Below, one piece after another: positions 12,252-23,200 of a stretch of 64,000 nucleotides of DNA (positions are counted from its first letter, which is position 1; the number at the start of each line of letters is the position of its first letter). A model generated the notes under the pieces. That model saw only the letters and a list, made by a program, of their open reading frames with translations. It did not search any database and was not told where the DNA came from. The DNA comes from Candidatus Zixiibacteriota bacterium (lineage in GTDB: Bacteria; Zixibacteria; MSB-5A5; UBA10806): positions 1 to 64,000 of the forward strand of contig JAHEDG010000004.1 of the NCBI GenBank assembly GCA_024641335.1, read 5' to 3'. The translations under genes were made by a program, and so were the position numbers.

Positions 12252-15200
12252 TTACTTCAGTAATGTCATCCTTTTTGTTTCAGCCCCCTGGGGCCAAGAT
12301 AACCTGTAAAAATAAACTCCGGAGGGTATATCCCCGGCGTTCCAGATAACTTTGTGCGAACCAGCCTGTAATTCATTGTCTACCAACGTAGTAATCTTCT
12401 GGCCCAAAACATTGAAGATCTCCAGTTGGACATTCCCGGCTGACGGAATCGAAAACTCGATGGCAGCGGAAGCGTTAAATGGATTGGGATAGCTTTGAGC
12501 CAGCGAAAAACCGCGCGCCAGTTTGCTTTCATCTTCAGTACCGGTGAAATACATAGAGCCGGTAGTAAATTTGAGCGCCCTTCCGTTGGTGATATTCGCG
12601 GCCCCGGCAGCATAGTTGTTGTTGAAAATATAACCGATTCCGTCCCGTCTATCCGGAGAGCAGATGCCAGCCGACATGGAATAGGGGCTGGAAACCGAAT
12701 TGTACTGGAATAGTATCTCATTATCGCCGGTCAATGTCGGCCAGGCGGTCAGATCGAGGAAGATGATTTCGAAGGTCTGATACCTGAATACATCTTCGTC
12801 ATAAGCGTTATTCCAGCCGACAATAAACCGTCCGTTATCGACATCGTGATAATAGTAAATCCTCAATCCGCTTTGTTTGAAATCATCCCAGAACGCGGCC
12901 ACCATTCCGGGGGCGTTCTGCGGCGCCGGAATAGGAGTATTATACCAGGCGTTCCAGTCTGTCCCTCCGAGGGCCACAAAACCATTATCACAAATGGTCA
13001 ACCGCTCGAACTCCTCGCCGTAATATGATACTGTAAAGGGTAGAGTGATCAGCCTGACCTCATCATCCCCTATCTGCACATATTGCCAGTTCTGGGTATC
13101 GATCGGTATCCAGTCGAACTCCGGATGATAGGTATAGGAGGTATCGGTATTGTCGAAGCAGTAATACCCGTAGTCGTCGGGCCCGATCGGATCGTGGCTG
13201 GAAATCTCGCCAACCGGCAGACTGAATGCGGTAGTGACTACCTGAGGGCCGATTCCGGTCAACTCCAGGGTGAAGTTGATAACATGACCTACATAGATAA
13301 AGTCGTCAGCCCGCAAGATAAAGGTATTGTTTTGGTTATCGAATGACTCGCCGGGAGGACAGTTACCGAAAGCCGCCAGAGAATCCATGATCGTTACCTG
13401 GTCGTCGGATGTTCTTAGAATTCCCGCGCCGCTTTCTATTCCCAGATCCCCGATATTCGAAAGAGAAATTCTCAGCTCGCAAATTTCGCCCGGATCAATC
13501 CTTCCGTCGCCGGCATCGATAACAGTAACGCTGTCGACAGAAAATTCAGCCGCTTCCACATTCTCGTGGATAATGGCGTTCCAGCTATGTCCTTCGTTGT
13601 CGGTTATGACCAGTATCAAACCGCTCCTGGCCATATTGGCCGCGTCGGGATGAACATTCACCAGATAAGGTTGATTGCTGGTCCCCACTCCTTCCGGAGC
13701 TATATCTCCGAAACCGGCGGAGTCTCTCATGACTTCGATATACTCGTTGTTACTGGAAAGAACCGCGGTAACATTATGAGCGGTCTCCGTTAGTCCGTAA
13801 TTTTTCAGTTCCAGAGAGAGTTCTATTGTTTCCGACGGATTCAGAACGCTGTTACCGTTGCCCGACGATTCCCCACTGGCGTCATCGTCGATAATATGCG
13901 ACAGATACCCTATGGTAACGCTGTTGCTGTAATATTCCGCGGATCCTTCATAAGGAATATATCCGGGAGCTACCGCGGTTACCCGCATACTCCCTTCGGT
14001 CAGGGCAGTAGCGTCAAAATGAATCTCACCGTTGGCGGCCGTGAATCCTCCGTCATAAATTTCCTCGCCCTTCCAGATATTGACATAAGCTCTTTCGAGA
14101 GGACTGCCCAGCCCGTCGGTTACTGTCACGTCGAAATGATTCTGCCCCATTTCAACCGAATCGGGGTGATCCGCTATCATCTGCATGGGAATATCTTTCC
14201 AGCAATTCAGTTCCGGATCGCCCAAGATATTATAGCTGTTGAAATACAGCTCCACCTGTCCGTTAACTCCCCGATCGCTGGGGAACGAGTAATAGAGATT
14301 CATTTTGCCCATGAGTAATCCCTGAGCCAGAGTGGTCGATCCTTCGTAAAACCAACCCCAGTAGATACCGGCGTCGATCGAGTTGGTCCAAACTGTGTGA
14401 GCATAATGATTGGTATTGCCCATAAAACCGGCCCCGCCCTTATTGGCGGATCTGATCCAGGTTTCTCCGAAACATTCCGGAGTCCAGCCATCGTTGAAAT
14501 CGCCGGTTCCGCAGACAATAGATGTCATGATCGGATACCTGGGACCGTTGGAAAGCTGCGAAATACTCGAGGAAACGAACCGGGGATATGTCCAGCCGGT
14601 GGCGTCGCCGTAGCCTCTATAATTCACGAAAGAGACGCCGCTGTTGATGCTGGAAATTACCCGTGACGCCGGAATATTTCCACTGCTATCGAACATCGTG
14701 TCGACAAAAGTATACCCGTTGTTCATCATAAACTCGCGGCAGAGCATCTTGGTAATTCGAGGGCTGACAAAATAGCCGTCGTCTCCCCCTGATGATACAG
14801 AGGCCCGGTGATACCATTCGGTATCCCCCATGTAGGGAGTTCTTTCATAGGCGAACAACTTGGCAATATACTGATTCAGGTGGGTGACGCTGTAAACCGA
14901 GATTCGTCCTATGAGGACTTCGGGGAAATAGTCATTGCCTTCGATAAATGTGTAATAGTTATCCGATTCGATATCTCCCGAACCGTGCGGATTGGAATAA
15001 TTGCGGGTGGGGATACCGTAGTTGTTAGGCATGGTCACGTCACCCACAATGGCGATGTAATCCGGTTTCACGTCACAGGTATCGAATAACGCGACTATAT
15101 AATTTTTAATATTGACATAAGTCGGATTAGAACCGATATCGCCTTTGGCGATCAAACGGACGCTAAAGCCTCTGGTCTTGTTCCATTCGATCAGCGGATC

Positions 15201-15926
15201 AAGATACTCGAGATAAGCGTCGGGGTAGATTATCCAGTAGGCTCCCCGGGTAATCTCGATCGGATCGAAAACCAGCGGATTATCGAGGATAGATTTGTAT
15301 ATGGGGGAGAAAGCTTCGGAGATCTTACCGTCGTAACGGGTCATTTTGGAGCCCGAATGAGTTATTTCTATCTCTATATTGTCGTAAACCAGGAGAGTCG
15401 AATTTTCAGGGTCGTACCTTACCGGCGATATCGTTACCGAATACAATCTTAAATCTCTCATTATCCCGGCGTTCTCACCGACGACCAGATTAGCCTGAAA
15501 ATTCATGGAAAAATCGTTGTCGGAACTGCGGTAGGAAGCTAAAGCCTCATCGTCCGCCGGCGCCAGATTGAATCTTTCGAATTCCTTATAACTCGAACCG
15601 AGGATCTTAACTGTCGGCTCGGAATCGAACGGGACGGCGATAATCCGGGTAATGGTCGGCAGAAGAACGTCTTGCGGCCCGAGGTAAGCTCCTCTCGACA
15701 TTTCGAAATCGTCCGGAAGAGATACCGAATATTCGATTTCGCCGTTAACAGCGTTCTGCTCATATTTCAATTCGGCCAAATCTATGCTCAGTATTGTGCG
15801 GCCTGGTTCCTGAACAGACACCGTTACGCCGGAATTTCCAGCATTGAGAATAAGGGCCTCTTTTTCGGCTCCCAGAGCCGTCGAGCATAAAAAGAACAAA
15901 CCTGCCGCTAATGCGCGAAAATTCAT
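12252..15926 (-). CDS. Large secreted gingipain-like C25 protein lacking the canonical catalytic His
   Basis: 1224 residues: signal peptide 1-19; gingipain-type propeptide about 25-210; C25 fold from about 225 (ARG-AYWIIYPDAYLEYL, DYIAIVGDVTMP) to 590; Ig-like domain; two CARDB-type modules (each with SGNGNSVLNPSETIELSLELKNYG-like seeds); a nidogen-like beta domain beginning GPDDYGYYCFDNTDTSY; sorting tail SYPNPFNASA...RMTLLK. The nucleophile region is kept (VCGTGDF, C472), but the His expected in YxGHG is Tyr (NYRGYGDATGW, Y439), 33 residues upstream. The paralogue at 20253 shares this layout and has Trp there. It is therefore either an inactive protease homologue or uses another His, perhaps in NHYAHT. 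AGGAGG precedes the ATG. Confidence 0.9.
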   Translation of the reverse strand: MNFRALAAGLFFLCSTALGAEKEALILNAGNSGVTVSVQEPGRTILSIDLAELKYEQNAVNGEIEYSVSLPDDFEMSRGAYLGPQDVLLPTITRIIAVPFDSEPTVKILGSSYKEFERFNLAPADDEALASYRSSDNDFSMNFQANLVVGENAGIMRDLRLYSVTISPVRYDPENSTLLVYDNIEIEITHSGSKMTRYDGKISEAFSPIYKSILDNPLVFDPIEITRGAYWIIYPDAYLEYLDPLIEWNKTRGFSVRLIAKGDIGSNPTYVNIKNYIVALFDTCDVKPDYIAIVGDVTMPNNYGIPTRNYSNPHGSGDIESDNYYTFIEGNDYFPEVLIGRISVYSVTHLNQYIAKLFAYERTPYMGDTEWYHRASVSSGGDDGYFVSPRITKMLCREFMMNNGYTFVDTMFDSSGNIPASRVISSINSGVSFVNYRGYGDATGWTYPRFVSSSISQLSNGPRYPIMTSIVCGTGDFNDGWTPECFGETWIRSANKGGAGFMGNTNHYAHTVWTNSIDAGIYWGWFYEGSTTLAQGLLMGKMNLYYSFPSDRGVNGQVELYFNSYNILGDPELNCWKDIPMQMIADHPDSVEMGQNHFDVTVTDGLGSPLERAYVNIWKGEEIYDGGFTAANGEIHFDATALTEGSMRVTAVAPGYIPYEGSAEYYSNSVTIGYLSHIIDDDASGESSGNGNSVLNPSETIELSLELKNYGLTETAHNVTAVLSSNNEYIEVMRDSAGFGDIAPEGVGTSNQPYLVNVHPDAANMARSGLILVITDNEGHSWNAIIHENVEAAEFSVDSVTVIDAGDGRIDPGEICELRISLSNIGDLGIESGAGILRTSDDQVTIMDSLAAFGNCPPGESFDNQNNTFILRADDFIYVGHVINFTLELTGIGPQVVTTAFSLPVGEISSHDPIGPDDYGYYCFDNTDTSYTYHPEFDWIPIDTQNWQYVQIGDDEVRLITLPFTVSYYGEEFERLTICDNGFVALGGTDWNAWYNTPIPAPQNAPGMVAAFWDDFKQSGLRIYYYHDVDNGRFIVGWNNAYDEDVFRYQTFEIIFLDLTAWPTLTGDNEILFQYNSVSSPYSMSAGICSPDRRDGIGYIFNNNYAAGAANITNGRALKFTTGSMYFTGTEDESKLARGFSLAQSYPNPFNASAAIEFSIPSAGNVQLEIFNVLGQKITTLVDNELQAGSHKVIWNAGDIPSGVYFYRLSWPQGAETKRMTLLK

Positions 15927-16208: not shown

Positions 16209-17552
16209 CTAAGCGGAAGGATCGCCAAAAATACCTAACGGTCTGAAAAACCTGCGGCAGTCGATGATCTCGGCGATCTCCTTCTTCCCTTTAGGTCTGA
16301 CTATCGCCAGGGGATGACGATAGACATTTACACCGTTCGGAGCCGCCTTCTGCGGTGAGAGACGTTTATTATAATCCCTGTCCCTGATGGCGAAAGTCCA
16401 GTAGTCTCCGGGAGTGAGATCGATATTCTTGTCCGGGGAATGAAACGTAGCCTTGATCCCTCTTCCCAGATCATATACTTTTTCCGGAATCAGCGATTGG
16501 CTGTATCCCGACCATCGTCTTAACCGCGGAGCCAGTTCGAGTTTCGGCCCCGATTTCCCGGCGATCTTCATGCGGGTCAACAGGGGATGAATTGTCGAAT
16601 CGAGAGTGATAGTCAGGCCTGTCTCGTCCTGGGTAAGCTCGACAATTCTGGCCATCTGGCCCCCCTGACGATGAAGCTCCGTGATGATATTCGAGATTTC
16701 CACCCAGTCTCCGGTATTAAGGGATTCGCCGGTAACCGCCTCGGACTCCTCCACGATCATGGTGTTATCCCCCGCGATCTTCAATATAGGTACGATTGTG
16801 GCGGCGTTTTCGTCGGACCACTTGAACCCCTCGCTGAATCCGCCGTTGGATACCGCCCCCCGATGCAGCTCCAATCTGAGGTGAAGATTGCCCGGAATCA
16901 ACCCGCCGCTGACATCAACCTCACCGAAATTTATCGGAATCTGCCTTGACGACTGATCAATCTTGATAGTCAGCGAAAGAGAATTGGAGGAGAGTCTATC
17001 CTTTATGTAATGATATGCGTCGGACGGCGACTCGATATTTTCGCAGGCTATGGCCTTCACCTGCCCGACCAGCTTGCCTCGCAGCGAGGTATCCGGTCCG
17101 CCCAAGGCAGGTTCCCGAACAATCTCATCATCGATATAGTTCACGCTTCTGACCCAGATTTCCATATAAATCATTATATCGCCGTGAGCTTCGGGAATCT
17201 CCGGCTCAGGGTAATCAGGCTGGGTTCTGAAAGTCATCTCTTTTTCGATAACATAAGGATATCCGCCGAGATATACCAGGCCGTTCCCGATTGAAAAATC
17301 AATTACCCCGGCCGGACCGGTTGTAAAAGAGGAGATCCCGCAGGCGCTCGAGTTGTCGTCGGTTATTTCGTTGGCCGATAAAGGAATAGCGAATTCTCCG
17401 AGGATATCTCTGGTCAGACGGCGAAAATTCTCCCGCCAGATATCGGACTGTTCATTCCAGTCCGAATCGAGATCGACTCGTCCCTGCTGCTTGTATACAC
17501 CGATATAGTTTTTAGCGCTGTCGAATGTAAATCTGGTAAAATCGCCTTTCAT
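16209..17552 (-). CDS. DUF6519-type protein (contractile-injection/phage-tail associated family), orphan
   Basis: A 447-residue protein without a signal peptide. The N terminus MKGDFTRFTFDSAKNYIGVY followed by QQGRVDLDSDWNEQ is the signature of the DUF6519 family, which often occurs in extracellular contractile injection system and tail-like loci. The remainder is beta-rich (VYLGGYPYVIEKE, EIWVRSVNYIDDE, LHLRLELHRG). It sits alone between C25 genes with AAAGGAG at its start; no sheath, tube, baseplate or AAA ATPase gene is nearby. Its role here is unknown. It may be a stand-alone structural or surface protein, or a remnant of a lost cluster. Confidence 0.7.
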   Translation of the reverse strand: MKGDFTRFTFDSAKNYIGVYKQQGRVDLDSDWNEQSDIWRENFRRLTRDILGEFAIPLSANEITDDNSSACGISSFTTGPAGVIDFSIGNGLVYLGGYPYVIEKEMTFRTQPDYPEPEIPEAHGDIMIYMEIWVRSVNYIDDEIVREPALGGPDTSLRGKLVGQVKAIACENIESPSDAYHYIKDRLSSNSLSLTIKIDQSSRQIPINFGEVDVSGGLIPGNLHLRLELHRGAVSNGGFSEGFKWSDENAATIVPILKIAGDNTMIVEESEAVTGESLNTGDWVEISNIITELHRQGGQMARIVELTQDETGLTITLDSTIHPLLTRMKIAGKSGPKLELAPRLRRWSGYSQSLIPEKVYDLGRGIKATFHSPDKNIDLTPGDYWTFAIRDRDYNKRLSPQKAAPNGVNVYRHPLAIVRPKGKKEIAEIIDCRRFFRPLGIFGDPSA

Positions 17553-18419: not shown

Positions 18420-18838
18420 ATATAACGATATAACGCCATCAAGCTTAAATTCATTAGATCCTATATCACCATATGAATCCGCAGGATATTTCGGCCCCCT
18501 GGCTCCCTCCTTAACTGACCCTGCTTCCCCGGTTGAGGCTGAATAGAGCCCTCAGCATCGACATAATAGATCTATTATCGCCAATTTAGCGGAACAAATC
18601 GGACACTGATCACTGTTTGAACAGTAATGTTATGGTGTTATTCGAGCTTGACAATTACGGTGATATTTTTATATTTAGGCAAAAGTCCGACCCCCCCCCC
18701 GGGAGGTCTTTCCAAGGAAATTTAGGCCGAAAGGTAGCTTCAATACACATTCGACGCCTTACGATAGGGATCTGAGCGTTTTCGAACGCCCCGAGCTTTC
18801 CCGATCTTAATTTCAGGCCATTATTTATGGAGAGGAAA
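18420..18838. other. Intergenic region with a C10 homopolymer tract
   Basis: No gene is supported in these 420 bp. A run of ten C followed by GGG lies at 18691-18703, about 140 bp before the LVIVD lipoprotein start, where it could affect a promoter by slipping; see findings. No terminator hairpin with a T-tract is obvious after the START-domain gene. Confidence 0.5.
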
Positions 18839-20200
18839 ATGATTGCCAGTTTGAAAGCTGTTAAAACAGAGTTTATTTACGCCCCTATGCTCATTCTCGC
18901 CTTAGGTATTCTAATTCTTATGGCCGGTTGCGGCGACGAAAAAGTCATTGTCAGGTATAGGGATATACCAGCGCCCATAGACTTAAGCTATCCGCCGGCG
19001 GATACATTCCTGACAATAAGCAATCCTACATTTTCATGGCATCCCGGCGAATCGGCAGTTCTCTACCAGCTTCAGGTTTCATCATCTCCTACTTTTATAA
19101 GCAAAAGTATAGATGTCACTACGCAGGATTCGTCCTACACTACTATTTCCAATCTGATCAACGGCAGTTATTTTTGGAGGGTTCGCGGACAGAATATTGA
19201 CGGAGTCCGGGGTGACTGGTCTGATGCCGATATCAGAACCTTTTTCAAAAGCGACTATGTAAATTATATCGGGTTGGTTTCCACTACCAGGACAATCGGT
19301 ATTCCGCAGGACCTTTTCATACGCGGAGACACGGCCTATATCGCCGACGGACAGGCCGATCTGACTATAATCGACATTTCCGATAAGGCCGCGCCGTTTA
19401 TCTTAAAAAATATCGACACTATCGACGATGACTTTGCCAAGAGCGTTTATATAGCGCCGACTGACACTTTCCCGTACGCCTTCGTGGCCGACATGGATGG
19501 CAAGGTCCAGATGATCAACACCGCGGATACAACCATGCTTTTCAACAGTTCCATAGGGACTCAGAACCTCGAGGAAGTAACCGGATATTATATTCAGGAT
19601 ACTCTCTATATATTCACCGTGAGATCGAGATCCGGGTTCAATCTGGCCGGTATGACAATCTATCAGATTGTTTACGACCCCCTGCCCCGCTCCGGCGATT
19701 TTTATATAGTTAATCCTATCGATACGCCGGCTGACGCCAATGGAGTGGATATTCAGGGAAATTACGCTTTTATTGCCTGCAGCATTTCCGGGCTGGCCAT
19801 AGTCGATATCAGCGATATTTACAATCCGTTCGGGCTAACGTTCTTTGAGCTGGACGGATCATCTTTAGCGGTGGATGTGGAAGGGGATTACGCTTACATA
19901 GCCGCTGATCGGGCCGGTTTTTATGCGATCAATGTAAGCGATCCGTCTAACCCCGTAATCTCTGCCCAGGTAAATACTTCGGGCAGGTCGAAGGATATTC
20001 ATGTGGCCGGGAATTTCGCGTTCATAGCCGATGGTTCGAGCGGCTTGAAAGTTATCGATATATCGGTTCCGGATTCGGCGCATTTCGTGGCCGCTTATAC
20101 CACTCCTTACGCTTATGGAGTCTGGGCGGACGAGAACTATATATATCTTTGCGATAGAGACGAGGGCCTGATGATTTTCGAGAACCGGACCTCGCGATAG
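18839..20200 (+). CDS. Lipoprotein with FN3 domain and LVIVD repeats
   Basis: I choose the ATG at 18839 (GGAGAGG immediately upstream) over the ATG at 18827, which overlaps that site; 453 residues. The N terminus has a hydrophobic stretch ending in a lipobox, LMAGC, so the mature protein is lipidated at that Cys. An FN3-like domain follows (PTFSWHPGESAVLYQLQVSS...YFWRVRG), then a beta-propeller built of LVIVD-type repeats (ADLTIIDISD, GLAIVDISD, GFYAINVSD, GLKVIDIS) each followed by a NPF/AAP-like turn. It is probably a surface or periplasmic binding lipoprotein. The large C25 gene starts 52 bp downstream on the same strand, so the two may be cotranscribed. Confidence 0.87.
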   Translation: MIASLKAVKTEFIYAPMLILALGILILMAGCGDEKVIVRYRDIPAPIDLSYPPADTFLTISNPTFSWHPGESAVLYQLQVSSSPTFISKSIDVTTQDSSYTTISNLINGSYFWRVRGQNIDGVRGDWSDADIRTFFKSDYVNYIGLVSTTRTIGIPQDLFIRGDTAYIADGQADLTIIDISDKAAPFILKNIDTIDDDFAKSVYIAPTDTFPYAFVADMDGKVQMINTADTTMLFNSSIGTQNLEEVTGYYIQDTLYIFTVRSRSGFNLAGMTIYQIVYDPLPRSGDFYIVNPIDTPADANGVDIQGNYAFIACSISGLAIVDISDIYNPFGLTFFELDGSSLAVDVEGDYAYIAADRAGFYAINVSDPSNPVISAQVNTSGRSKDIHVAGNFAFIADGSSGLKVIDISVPDSAHFVAAYTTPYAYGVWADENYIYLCDRDEGLMIFENRTSR

Positions 20201-20252
20201 AAAGATTGATATTCTATGATAATAGTTAATCGTTAACACATCTGGAGGAACC

Positions 20253-23200
20253 ATGAAAGACATGCTACGACTTTCGTTGGCCGCATCATTGACGCTTCTT
20301 CTCGCTTTCGCGGGAATCGCCATGGCCGCCGAATCGATCCGAGTCGTTTCGGACATCGAAAACGAAACAGCCGTTTTCAGTGTCGGAAAAACGGTATCGG
20401 CCGACGCGGCTATCAGCCTCGATCTGCCGGCCGTCGGGATATCGACCGTCACTCTCGACGGAACCGAATACGACGAAATCCAGCTTCCGGCCGCCGAACA
20501 TTTGTTCGCCGGTGAGACAGCTGAAGACGGTCAGCCGAATATGCCGATTCTCACCACCAACCTGGCTATACCCGACCGAGCCGGGATCGAGTACACGGTG
20601 GAATATTCAGGATTTGACGTTATCGATAATATCGATATAGCGCCGTCGCAGCCGGCCACACTCGAATCCGGCGAGAATCTTCCGGCATTTACTATAGATA
20701 CGCGGACATATTCAAGCGACAAATTTTATCCGGGAGATCTGGCCGAGGTTCATGATCCGGTTATTATGAGAGATTTGAGAATGGTTCAGGTATCAATGTA
20801 CCCGGTGCAGTATAACCCGGTCACCCGCCAGCTGCGAGTATACCGTGATCTTTCGGTATCTGTTTCCTATACATCGGAAAACGCGGTCAATCCCAAAACC
20901 GTCCATCATCAATATCTCTCCGACGGTTTCTATCCGATTTATCGTTCCACCGTATCGAATTTCGACGAGTTTTTCTCAACCACAGAGGTTCGCCGCGGCG
21001 GTTATCTGATAATCGCCAAGGACGCTTTTATCGACACTCTGAGAGCCTTGGCAGACTGGAAGCACAGAAAAGGATACACTGTCTATATCACGCCGACTAC
21101 GGAGATTGTTCCCGGAGGAAGCCCTTCCCAGAGTCAGGTTTACAATTATATCAGAACCGCGTATCAAACATGGGAAACTCCTCCGGAATACGTGATGATC
21201 GTGGGCGACGAAAGCGGCAGCTACAGTATCCCCGATTACCCTTACGGCAGCTACGCGTCCGACCATCCGTATTCAATGGTAGAAGGTTCGGATTACCTTC
21301 CCGATCTGTTTGTCAGCCGATTCTCGGTCGCCAGTATGGCTCAATTGAGAGTGGCTCTGGCCAAAGTAATGGACTATGAGACGAATCCTTATATGGACGA
21401 TCTCAACTACTGGCGCAGGGGATTATCGGTCGCCGGAAACGTTATTGCCACGACGCCGAGAACGACGGTACTCTGGGTACGGCAGCTTCTTCTTCAAAAC
21501 GGCTTTACCCATGTCGACACGTCATTCAGATGGAGTTCGGGAGAAACCGACCCCTACCTGCTGGGATATTTCAACAGCGGACCATGCCTGATCAGCTACA
21601 GGGGCTGGGCCGGATCATCAGGATGGTATTCGCCGTCCTTTAATACCGGCAACCTGGCTCAGATTCAAAATCACAACAAAATCGGGGTCATGGCATCTCT
21701 GGTATGCGGTACAGGCGATTTTGCCAGCAGCGAATGTTTCGGGGAGATGTGGCTTCGCATGGGATCCTCAACTACGATTTACAAGGGCGGGCCCGCCTTC
21801 TATGGAGTTACCGATCACAGCACCCATACCAGGTGGAACAACCCTATTATGACCGGATACTACTGGGGAATTTTTTCGGAGGAGATCTACCATTTCGCCG
21901 CCGCGGCGGTCAGAGGCAAGATCCAGCAGTATAACACATTCCCGCGGTATGCCGGCCCCGGCGGGTATGTCGAGCAGTATTTCCATACCTACAATATGCT
22001 CGGCGATCCGGAACTGGAAATCAGAACCGCGGTACCCAGCAGGCTGAGCGCCACCTACCCCTCTTCTCTCAATCTCGGAATAAATCACATTGAGATAAAT
22101 GTAACCCATGAACTGGATCAACCGGTTGAAGGGGCTTTTGTCACCCTGGTTAAACATTCGGGAGACGAAGAAGAAGTCTTCGCAGTGGGGAAAACCGACG
22201 CCGCCGGCAACATAGCTTTGTCGTTTGACGCCACTACGACCGGCGAGATGTTCGTTACAGTATCGGGCCGCAATTTCATCCCCCATCAGGGTTCGGTCTC
22301 CATTGTCGACGGCGAAATAGCGGTCGGTTACGATTCGCATAGTATCGATGACGATAACAGCGGGTATTCATCGGGCAACGGCGACGGCATAGCCGATCCC
22401 GGAGAGACTATCGAGCTGACAGTCGATCTCAAGAATTTCGGCACCAGCGGAACCGCTTATAACGTAACCACCTCCCTGGAATCAATGGATAGCGATCTTA
22501 TTTCGGTATTTGATTCCGACAGGAGTTACGGCGATATCGCTCCGGGCCAGATAGTTTCATCAGAATTTCCATTCGTTATAAAGATCGATAACCGCGCTCA
22601 GGAAGGCGATATCGCTCGTTTGAAGCTTTCGGTCACCGATACCAACGGAGATTCGTGGTACTCGGTAATCGAGATCTCGATCGAGTCGGCCAAATTCAAG
22701 GTGACTACTGTAGGTTTCCCCGGCGGCAATGGCCGTCTCGATCCGGGCGAAACGATTGAAATGGTACTGACTATCCAGAATATCGGCTCTATAGACGCGG
22801 CCGGGGTCAGCGGATATGTAACCACCGATGACGATTACACTACTGTGACAGCCGGCTCCTCATCCTTCGGCGATATACCGGTTGACGGTTCGGCCAATAA
22901 CATGAACTATCCTTTCGTTGTCACCTGCGACGCGTCGACGTTCGAGGGAAGACAGGTCGGATTGCTTCTTCATACCACGCTGTCGAACGGAGCCGAATCG
23001 GTTGTGCCGTTCTTCACTACGATCGGCAGCCTGCAGGCCAATGATCCGACAGGGCCGGACGCTTACGGCTATTATATGTTCGACAACACCGATACCGATT
23101 ATTCGCCTGCCCCGACCTACGAATGGGTCGAATGTGTTCCCGGGCTGGGCGGCAGCGGCACCCGTATTTCCTTCTCAAACAGCGATGATTATTCGGTAAT

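Follow-up and report, generated by a model that had tools for sequence, protein, structure and literature searches.

The locus and the architecture of P0003

The window analyzed here, a 64,000-nucleotide stretch of DNA from a Candidatus Zixiibacteriota bacterium, encodes on its reverse strand (positions 12252–15926) a secreted C25-related protein of 1224 amino acids, P0003, whose open reading frame is open and intact. Residues 1–20 (MNFRALAAGLFFLCSTALGA; 15867–15926, reverse strand) were assigned by eye from the sequence as a predicted signal peptide. Further along lie a Propeptide_C25 domain (residues 88–196; 15339–15665, reverse strand; Pfam E 2.3e-11) and a C25 catalytic domain (residues 230–574; 14205–15239, reverse strand) recognized by Pfam (E 5.7e-61), by AF2 modeling, and by superposition on RgpB. 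P0003 matched PF01364 Peptidase_C25 with 207.2 bits against a threshold of 23, covering profile positions 1–373 of 374. An Ig-like stretch separates the Peptidase_C25 domain from a type IX secretion sorting domain (residues 1146–1219; 12270–12491, reverse strand), which scored 33 bits with PF18962 (cut-off 27) and 39.6 bits with TIGR04183 (cut-off 23).

P0003 was modeled with AF2 together with 58 other C25 proteins, giving a pLDDT of 92.9 and a pTM of 0.92. The model has the gingipain fold: it superimposed on RgpB (4ief_B) with a Z score of 46.4 and 2.0 Å over 407 residues, and the next solved relative was Kgp (Z 44.9). In one pair of orthologues, dN/dS was 0.10 across the catalytic domain, against about 0.145 in the remainder of the protein, indicating that the catalytic domain is under purifying selection that is stronger than in the rest of the protein. 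A sequencing error or a pseudogene is ruled out by the orthologues and these ratios.

The gene next to P0003 (10199–12070, reverse strand) encodes an M14 zinc carboxypeptidase with intact zinc motifs (HADE, DYHS, and VEI), and in at least four related genomes the P0003 orthologue is followed by such a gene. This neighbor fits, and does not prove, a role in peptide breakdown. Upstream of P0003 lies a gene for a DUF6519 protein (16209–17552), which also precedes the orthologues in two related genomes.

Active-site positions compared with gingipains

A His-Cys dyad defines clan CD, which includes caspases, legumain, separase, and the gingipains. We aligned P0003 directly to RgpB (1cvr and 4ief) and Kgp. 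The clan CD Cys after the fourth core strand is present as Cys472 (codon TGC; 14511–14513, reverse strand), at the position of RgpB Cys244 and Kgp Cys477. The clan CD His-then-Gly after the third core strand is absent, because Tyr-439 (NYRGYG; codon TAC; 14610–14612, reverse strand) occupies the position of RgpB His211 (NYTGHG) and Kgp His444. A sequence-only reading of this DNA had described a C25 homologue with Tyr at the catalytic His position and Cys472 placed 33 residues further on. Both statements were borne out: both codons were checked, the spacing is right in the RgpB/Kgp alignment, and the orthologues agree, with Tyr in nine and Trp in one of the 10 (including P0003).

The same reading held that all other landmarks were kept, which our alignment contradicts. 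The gingipain catalytic acid (RgpB E152, Kgp D388) is replaced, mostly by VAGN, IGYT, or VSGG across the family of His-lacking domains described below (the YRG clade). In P0003, one Asp of a GGDD motif may align with Kgp D388; it is not conserved in the clade. Asp163 of the RgpB S1 pocket is also replaced, with Pro389 of P0003 aligned there, and the adjacent Arg390 is near-invariant in the Zixibacteria members of the clade. These findings do not support the picture of one isolated Tyr replacement in an otherwise unchanged active site.

Given the loss of both the catalytic acid and Asp163 and the new Arg437 of the YRG motif (14616–14618, reverse strand), P0003 should not be expected to cleave after Arg or Lys. 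In a profile alignment, the YRG-clade profile matched the RgpB and Kgp pro-domains. We also considered the pro-domain as a source of information on specificity. Asp/Asn P1 specificity, suggested by a D in the latency loop at the presumed equivalent of Kgp K129, was rejected because canonical Asp163-type domains carry D too, and the pro-domain gives no clue to P0003 specificity.

Distribution and phylogeny of the YRG clade

Of 132 genomes searched within the phylum, 121 returned matches. A single-sequence search of the genome contigs with P0003 found nothing, and the clade alignment used as query found 59 loci. From the phylum search and related-locus retrieval we aligned 136 distinct C25 domains of at least 300 amino acids each. 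Within this set, whose related-locus sampling is biased toward the motif used as query, His was present at the gingipain position in 59 domains and missing from 77. All 77 have an Arg two residues upstream of that position (YRG, with variants such as FRG and YRV), where His-bearing domains have Cys, Thr, or Ser. In place of His they have Trp, Tyr, Phe, Gly, Glu, Ala, Ile, Leu, Asn, or others; the loss is therefore neither private to P0003 nor specific to Tyr. The Cys at the catalytic position is invariant, both in the 136 domains overall and in the 77 of the YRG clade.

YRG members came from Zixibacteria, WOR-3/Stahlbacteria, Hydrothermus, TA06, Marinimicrobia, Calditrichota, Cloacimonadota, and Delongbacteria. 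In a tree computed after removal of the trait columns, the core of these 77 formed one clade (SH-aLRT 99, and 100 on a thinned set, where a branch with that value separates the core clade minus WOR-3 group C from the rest). Because the group C paralogues were placed beside the core clade with weak support, His was lost once or twice. The YRG clade is a large, overlooked branch of gingipain-like proteases, and we found no paper on it in the open-licence literature searched. The earlier view of an ordered loss rather than decay is sustained by this clade-wide pattern, by the Cys retained in 136 of 136 domains, and by the dN/dS of about 0.10 in the catalytic domain.

A conserved loop histidine following the fifth core strand

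Outside WOR-3, 57 of the 58 YRG members carry a His within the eight-residue loop 503–510, which follows the fifth core strand, compared with 0 of 59 His211-type domains and a background His frequency of 2%. His510 itself (14397–14399, reverse strand), part of the motif HT[RK]W[NT]N, occurs in 50 of these 58 members and in all 10 P0003 orthologues. Of the remaining members, seven have a His two or three residues earlier, and L134 alone lacks any loop His. A second loop His, represented in P0003 by His507 (14406–14408, reverse strand) and variable among the orthologues, was found in 19 of the 50 members that keep His510, compared with the earlier loop His in all seven of those that lost it. This exceeds expectation (Fisher 0.0025 by sequence count), but the independent events number only about five, and the pattern is no more than suggestive. 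Two Zixibacteria paralogues, L054 (TGTRWNN) and L055 (TNTKWNN), lack His510 and have His507, and so offer a natural comparison of the importance of the two loop His residues.

The WOR-3 members differ: group B (11 sequences, TSSRWNN) and group C (eight sequences) keep the Cys and have no conserved loop His. Lacking both His residues, they may be true pseudoenzymes. They argue either for pseudoenzymes in those groups or against the loop His being essential.

Could the whole clade, P0003 included, have lost proteolysis, with the preserved groove (Cys, Arg437, and the HTRWNN loop) binding a peptide or polymer and the Cys serving in folding or covalent capture? The replacement of both the catalytic His and the acid speaks for this, as do the WOR-3 members that retain Cys and Arg437 without a conserved loop His and the existence of an NCBIfam model of a type IX-exported inactivated metalloprotease. 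There is also a precedent in pseudo-orthocaspases, where Tyr occupies the His position (PMC6426788). However, those proteins lose the Cys as well; loss of catalysis predicts neither a Cys kept in 77 of 77 members nor a new loop His in nearly all of those outside WOR-3; and the catalytic domain is more constrained than the rest of the protein. We consider loss of proteolysis the main rival reading for P0003, less likely than a relocated His. The sequence-only reading had left the choice between a pseudoprotease with a binding role and the use of a different His, such as in NHYAHT; the second option is the better supported, given that His510, the conserved His of this motif, is retained among orthologues and across the clade outside WOR-3, and that it aligns with a position next to the catalytic Cys in relatives.

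Predicted position of His510 relative to Cys472

In the profile alignment, His510 falls on Kgp Asn510 and Trp513 on Kgp Trp513. The RgpB loop is shorter, and the placing of gaps decides whether its residue 281 falls on His507 or on His510; the HMM alignment gives His507, owing to a three-residue insertion in the loop. In the AF2 model this loop is a turn leading from strand 500–504 to a helix starting at T511, and the block has pLDDT values of 94–97. Kgp Asn510 is listed as the equivalent of legumain Ser215, which lies within hydrogen-bonding distance of the catalytic Cys189 and is part of the extended active site (PMC9604545). In RgpB, Gln282 and Trp284 of the same loop belong to the P1 binding site (PMC4357240), and Asp281, examined as a candidate base for Cys244, proved a poor one (PMC10882967). 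From the alignment to Kgp Asn510 and this literature, the new His most likely sits beside Cys472, on the opposite side from the old one.

A second alternative keeps P0003 a Cys enzyme in which the loop His is not the base: Cys472 would pair with Arg437, the Cys would be activated with the help of the substrate, Arg437 would bind an acidic group of the substrate, and the loop His would bind substrate. Cys472 and Arg437 never vary in the clade, WOR-3 included. For RgpB, computation has led to the proposal that the substrate helps to activate Cys244, with no His acting as base (PMC10882967). Furthermore, WOR-3 members lie within an operon for poly-gamma-glutamate, an acidic polymer. On the other hand, this explanation accounts neither for the loop His in 57 of 58 members outside WOR-3 nor for its shift by a few residues instead of its disappearance, and we regard it as improbable.

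Paralogues, secretion system, and genomic context

The genome of P0003 contains six C25 genes. Three are of the YRG type, namely P0003, P0001, and one on contig C56, and three keep the His, including PorU. P0001 (20253–24587, forward strand) has Trp at the His211 position (YRGWAG) and the loop DHSTHTRWNN. The contrasting case in the window is P0002 (45124–49794, forward strand), a His-bearing (YTAHG) Kgp-like paralogue.

PorU is a C25 member and the sortase of the T9SS. In this genome it scored 708 bits, and SprA 678 bits; the presence of both makes T9SS export of P0003 credible, and P0003 thus combines a C-terminal sorting domain with a T9SS in the same genome, as expected of type IX cargo. 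P0003 is not PorU itself, which is encoded on contig C89. A transpeptidase or sortase-like function akin to that of PorU, instead of hydrolysis, could be proposed because PorU belongs to C25 and the PorU/PorU2 profiles match P0003 weakly. These matches, however, reach 51–61 bits against cut-offs of 420–450, the genome has its own PorU with a canonical GHG, and YRG paralogues occur several per genome, making such a function highly improbable.

Directly upstream of P0001 is a gene for an LVIVD-type beta-propeller (18827–20200, forward strand). The same arrangement, an LVIVD gene immediately preceding a YRG-type C25 gene, recurs across Zixibacteria, WOR-3/Stahlbacteria, and Hydrothermus (18827–20253 in the window and L104, L111, L115, L117, L118, L121–L123, L126–L128, L131–L134, L138, and L153). 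None was found upstream of His-bearing C25 genes in the stretches of the 19 that were checked. In WOR-3/Stahlbacteria, two YRG C25 genes without the conserved loop His are part of a single run of overlapping genes together with PgsB, PgsC, a poly-gamma-glutamate system protein, an LVIVD gene, and a T9SS-tailed BNR protein (L121:86–13345; same order in L117, L122, L123, L131, and L153). The genome of P0003 has a PgsB-PgsC-system protein cluster with two unknown genes of that run (L168:6019–10819, contig C64), and this cluster is not adjacent to a C25 gene.

A proposed relocation of the active-site histidine

We favor the interpretation, at a probability of roughly 55%, that P0003 is a Cys enzyme whose active-site His has moved across the Cys. 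P0003 would be a cysteine enzyme, exported by the type IX route to the cell surface or beyond, from the distinct, C25-related YRG clade. The ancestor of the clade would have lost the His that closes the third core strand (the counterpart of RgpB His211) along with its acid partner, and the loop His after the fifth core strand (His510, HT[RK]WNN) would have taken a place on the other side of Cys472, most likely as general base or ion-pair partner. The S1 pocket appears to have been rebuilt, with Asp163 gone, Arg437 invariant, and Arg390 near-invariant in Zixibacteria, from which we infer a changed specificity. Hence, the YRG enzyme may have shifted a portion of its catalytic apparatus instead of losing its activity. 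The broader proposal, a multi-phylum clan CD clade in which the catalytic His passed from the end of the third strand across the Cys into the loop behind the fifth, converted the substrate-separated dyad to a Cys-adjacent pair, and came with a new specificity, is more tentative, at slightly under even odds.

Several points weigh against relocation. In clan CD, His and Cys are on opposite sides of the substrate (PMC9604545), so protons would have to reach the leaving group by another path if the His stood on the side of the Cys. The Cys persists in WOR-3 groups B and C and in L134, where no conserved loop His is present, showing that it can be kept without one, and the conserved Cys could be structural. 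The HMM placement of RgpB residue 281 at His507 rather than His510 is a further such point. Since the His swap amounts to essentially one or two events, its correlation with the loop His is no statistical proof of function; the argument is the conservation that followed.

If relocation is true, the YRG clade would be a clear case of active-site migration in the clan CD fold; otherwise it would be a sizeable group of pseudoproteases that are secreted. In both cases, Arg/Lys gingipains are overcounted by C25 annotation of sediment and subsurface genomes, as the three YRG-type genes among the six C25 genes of the P0003 genome illustrate.

Comparison with known systems

Bacterial pseudo-orthocaspases (Tyr-Ser) resemble P0003 in that Tyr stands where clan CD peptidases have their catalytic His (PMC6426788). 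They differ in that His and Cys are both replaced, with no replacement His described in the abstract, whereas the YRG Cys is kept throughout. In legumain (C13), Ser215 occupies the position equivalent to His510, next to the catalytic Cys; unlike P0003, legumain retains its His148, and Ser215 merely tunes activity. PorU shares with P0003 the C25-type domain, the genome, and the secretion route, but keeps GHG, and P0003 scored 51.3 bits with NF033707 against a cut-off of 420. RgpB and Kgp (MEROPS C25) share with P0003 a homologous pro-domain, the caspase-like domain, an Ig-like domain, the Cys, and a T9SS sorting tail. In contrast to these gingipains, P0003 has His211/His444, E152/D388, and Asp163 replaced, and it has the invariant Arg437, the loop His, and a three-residue insertion in the S1 loop.
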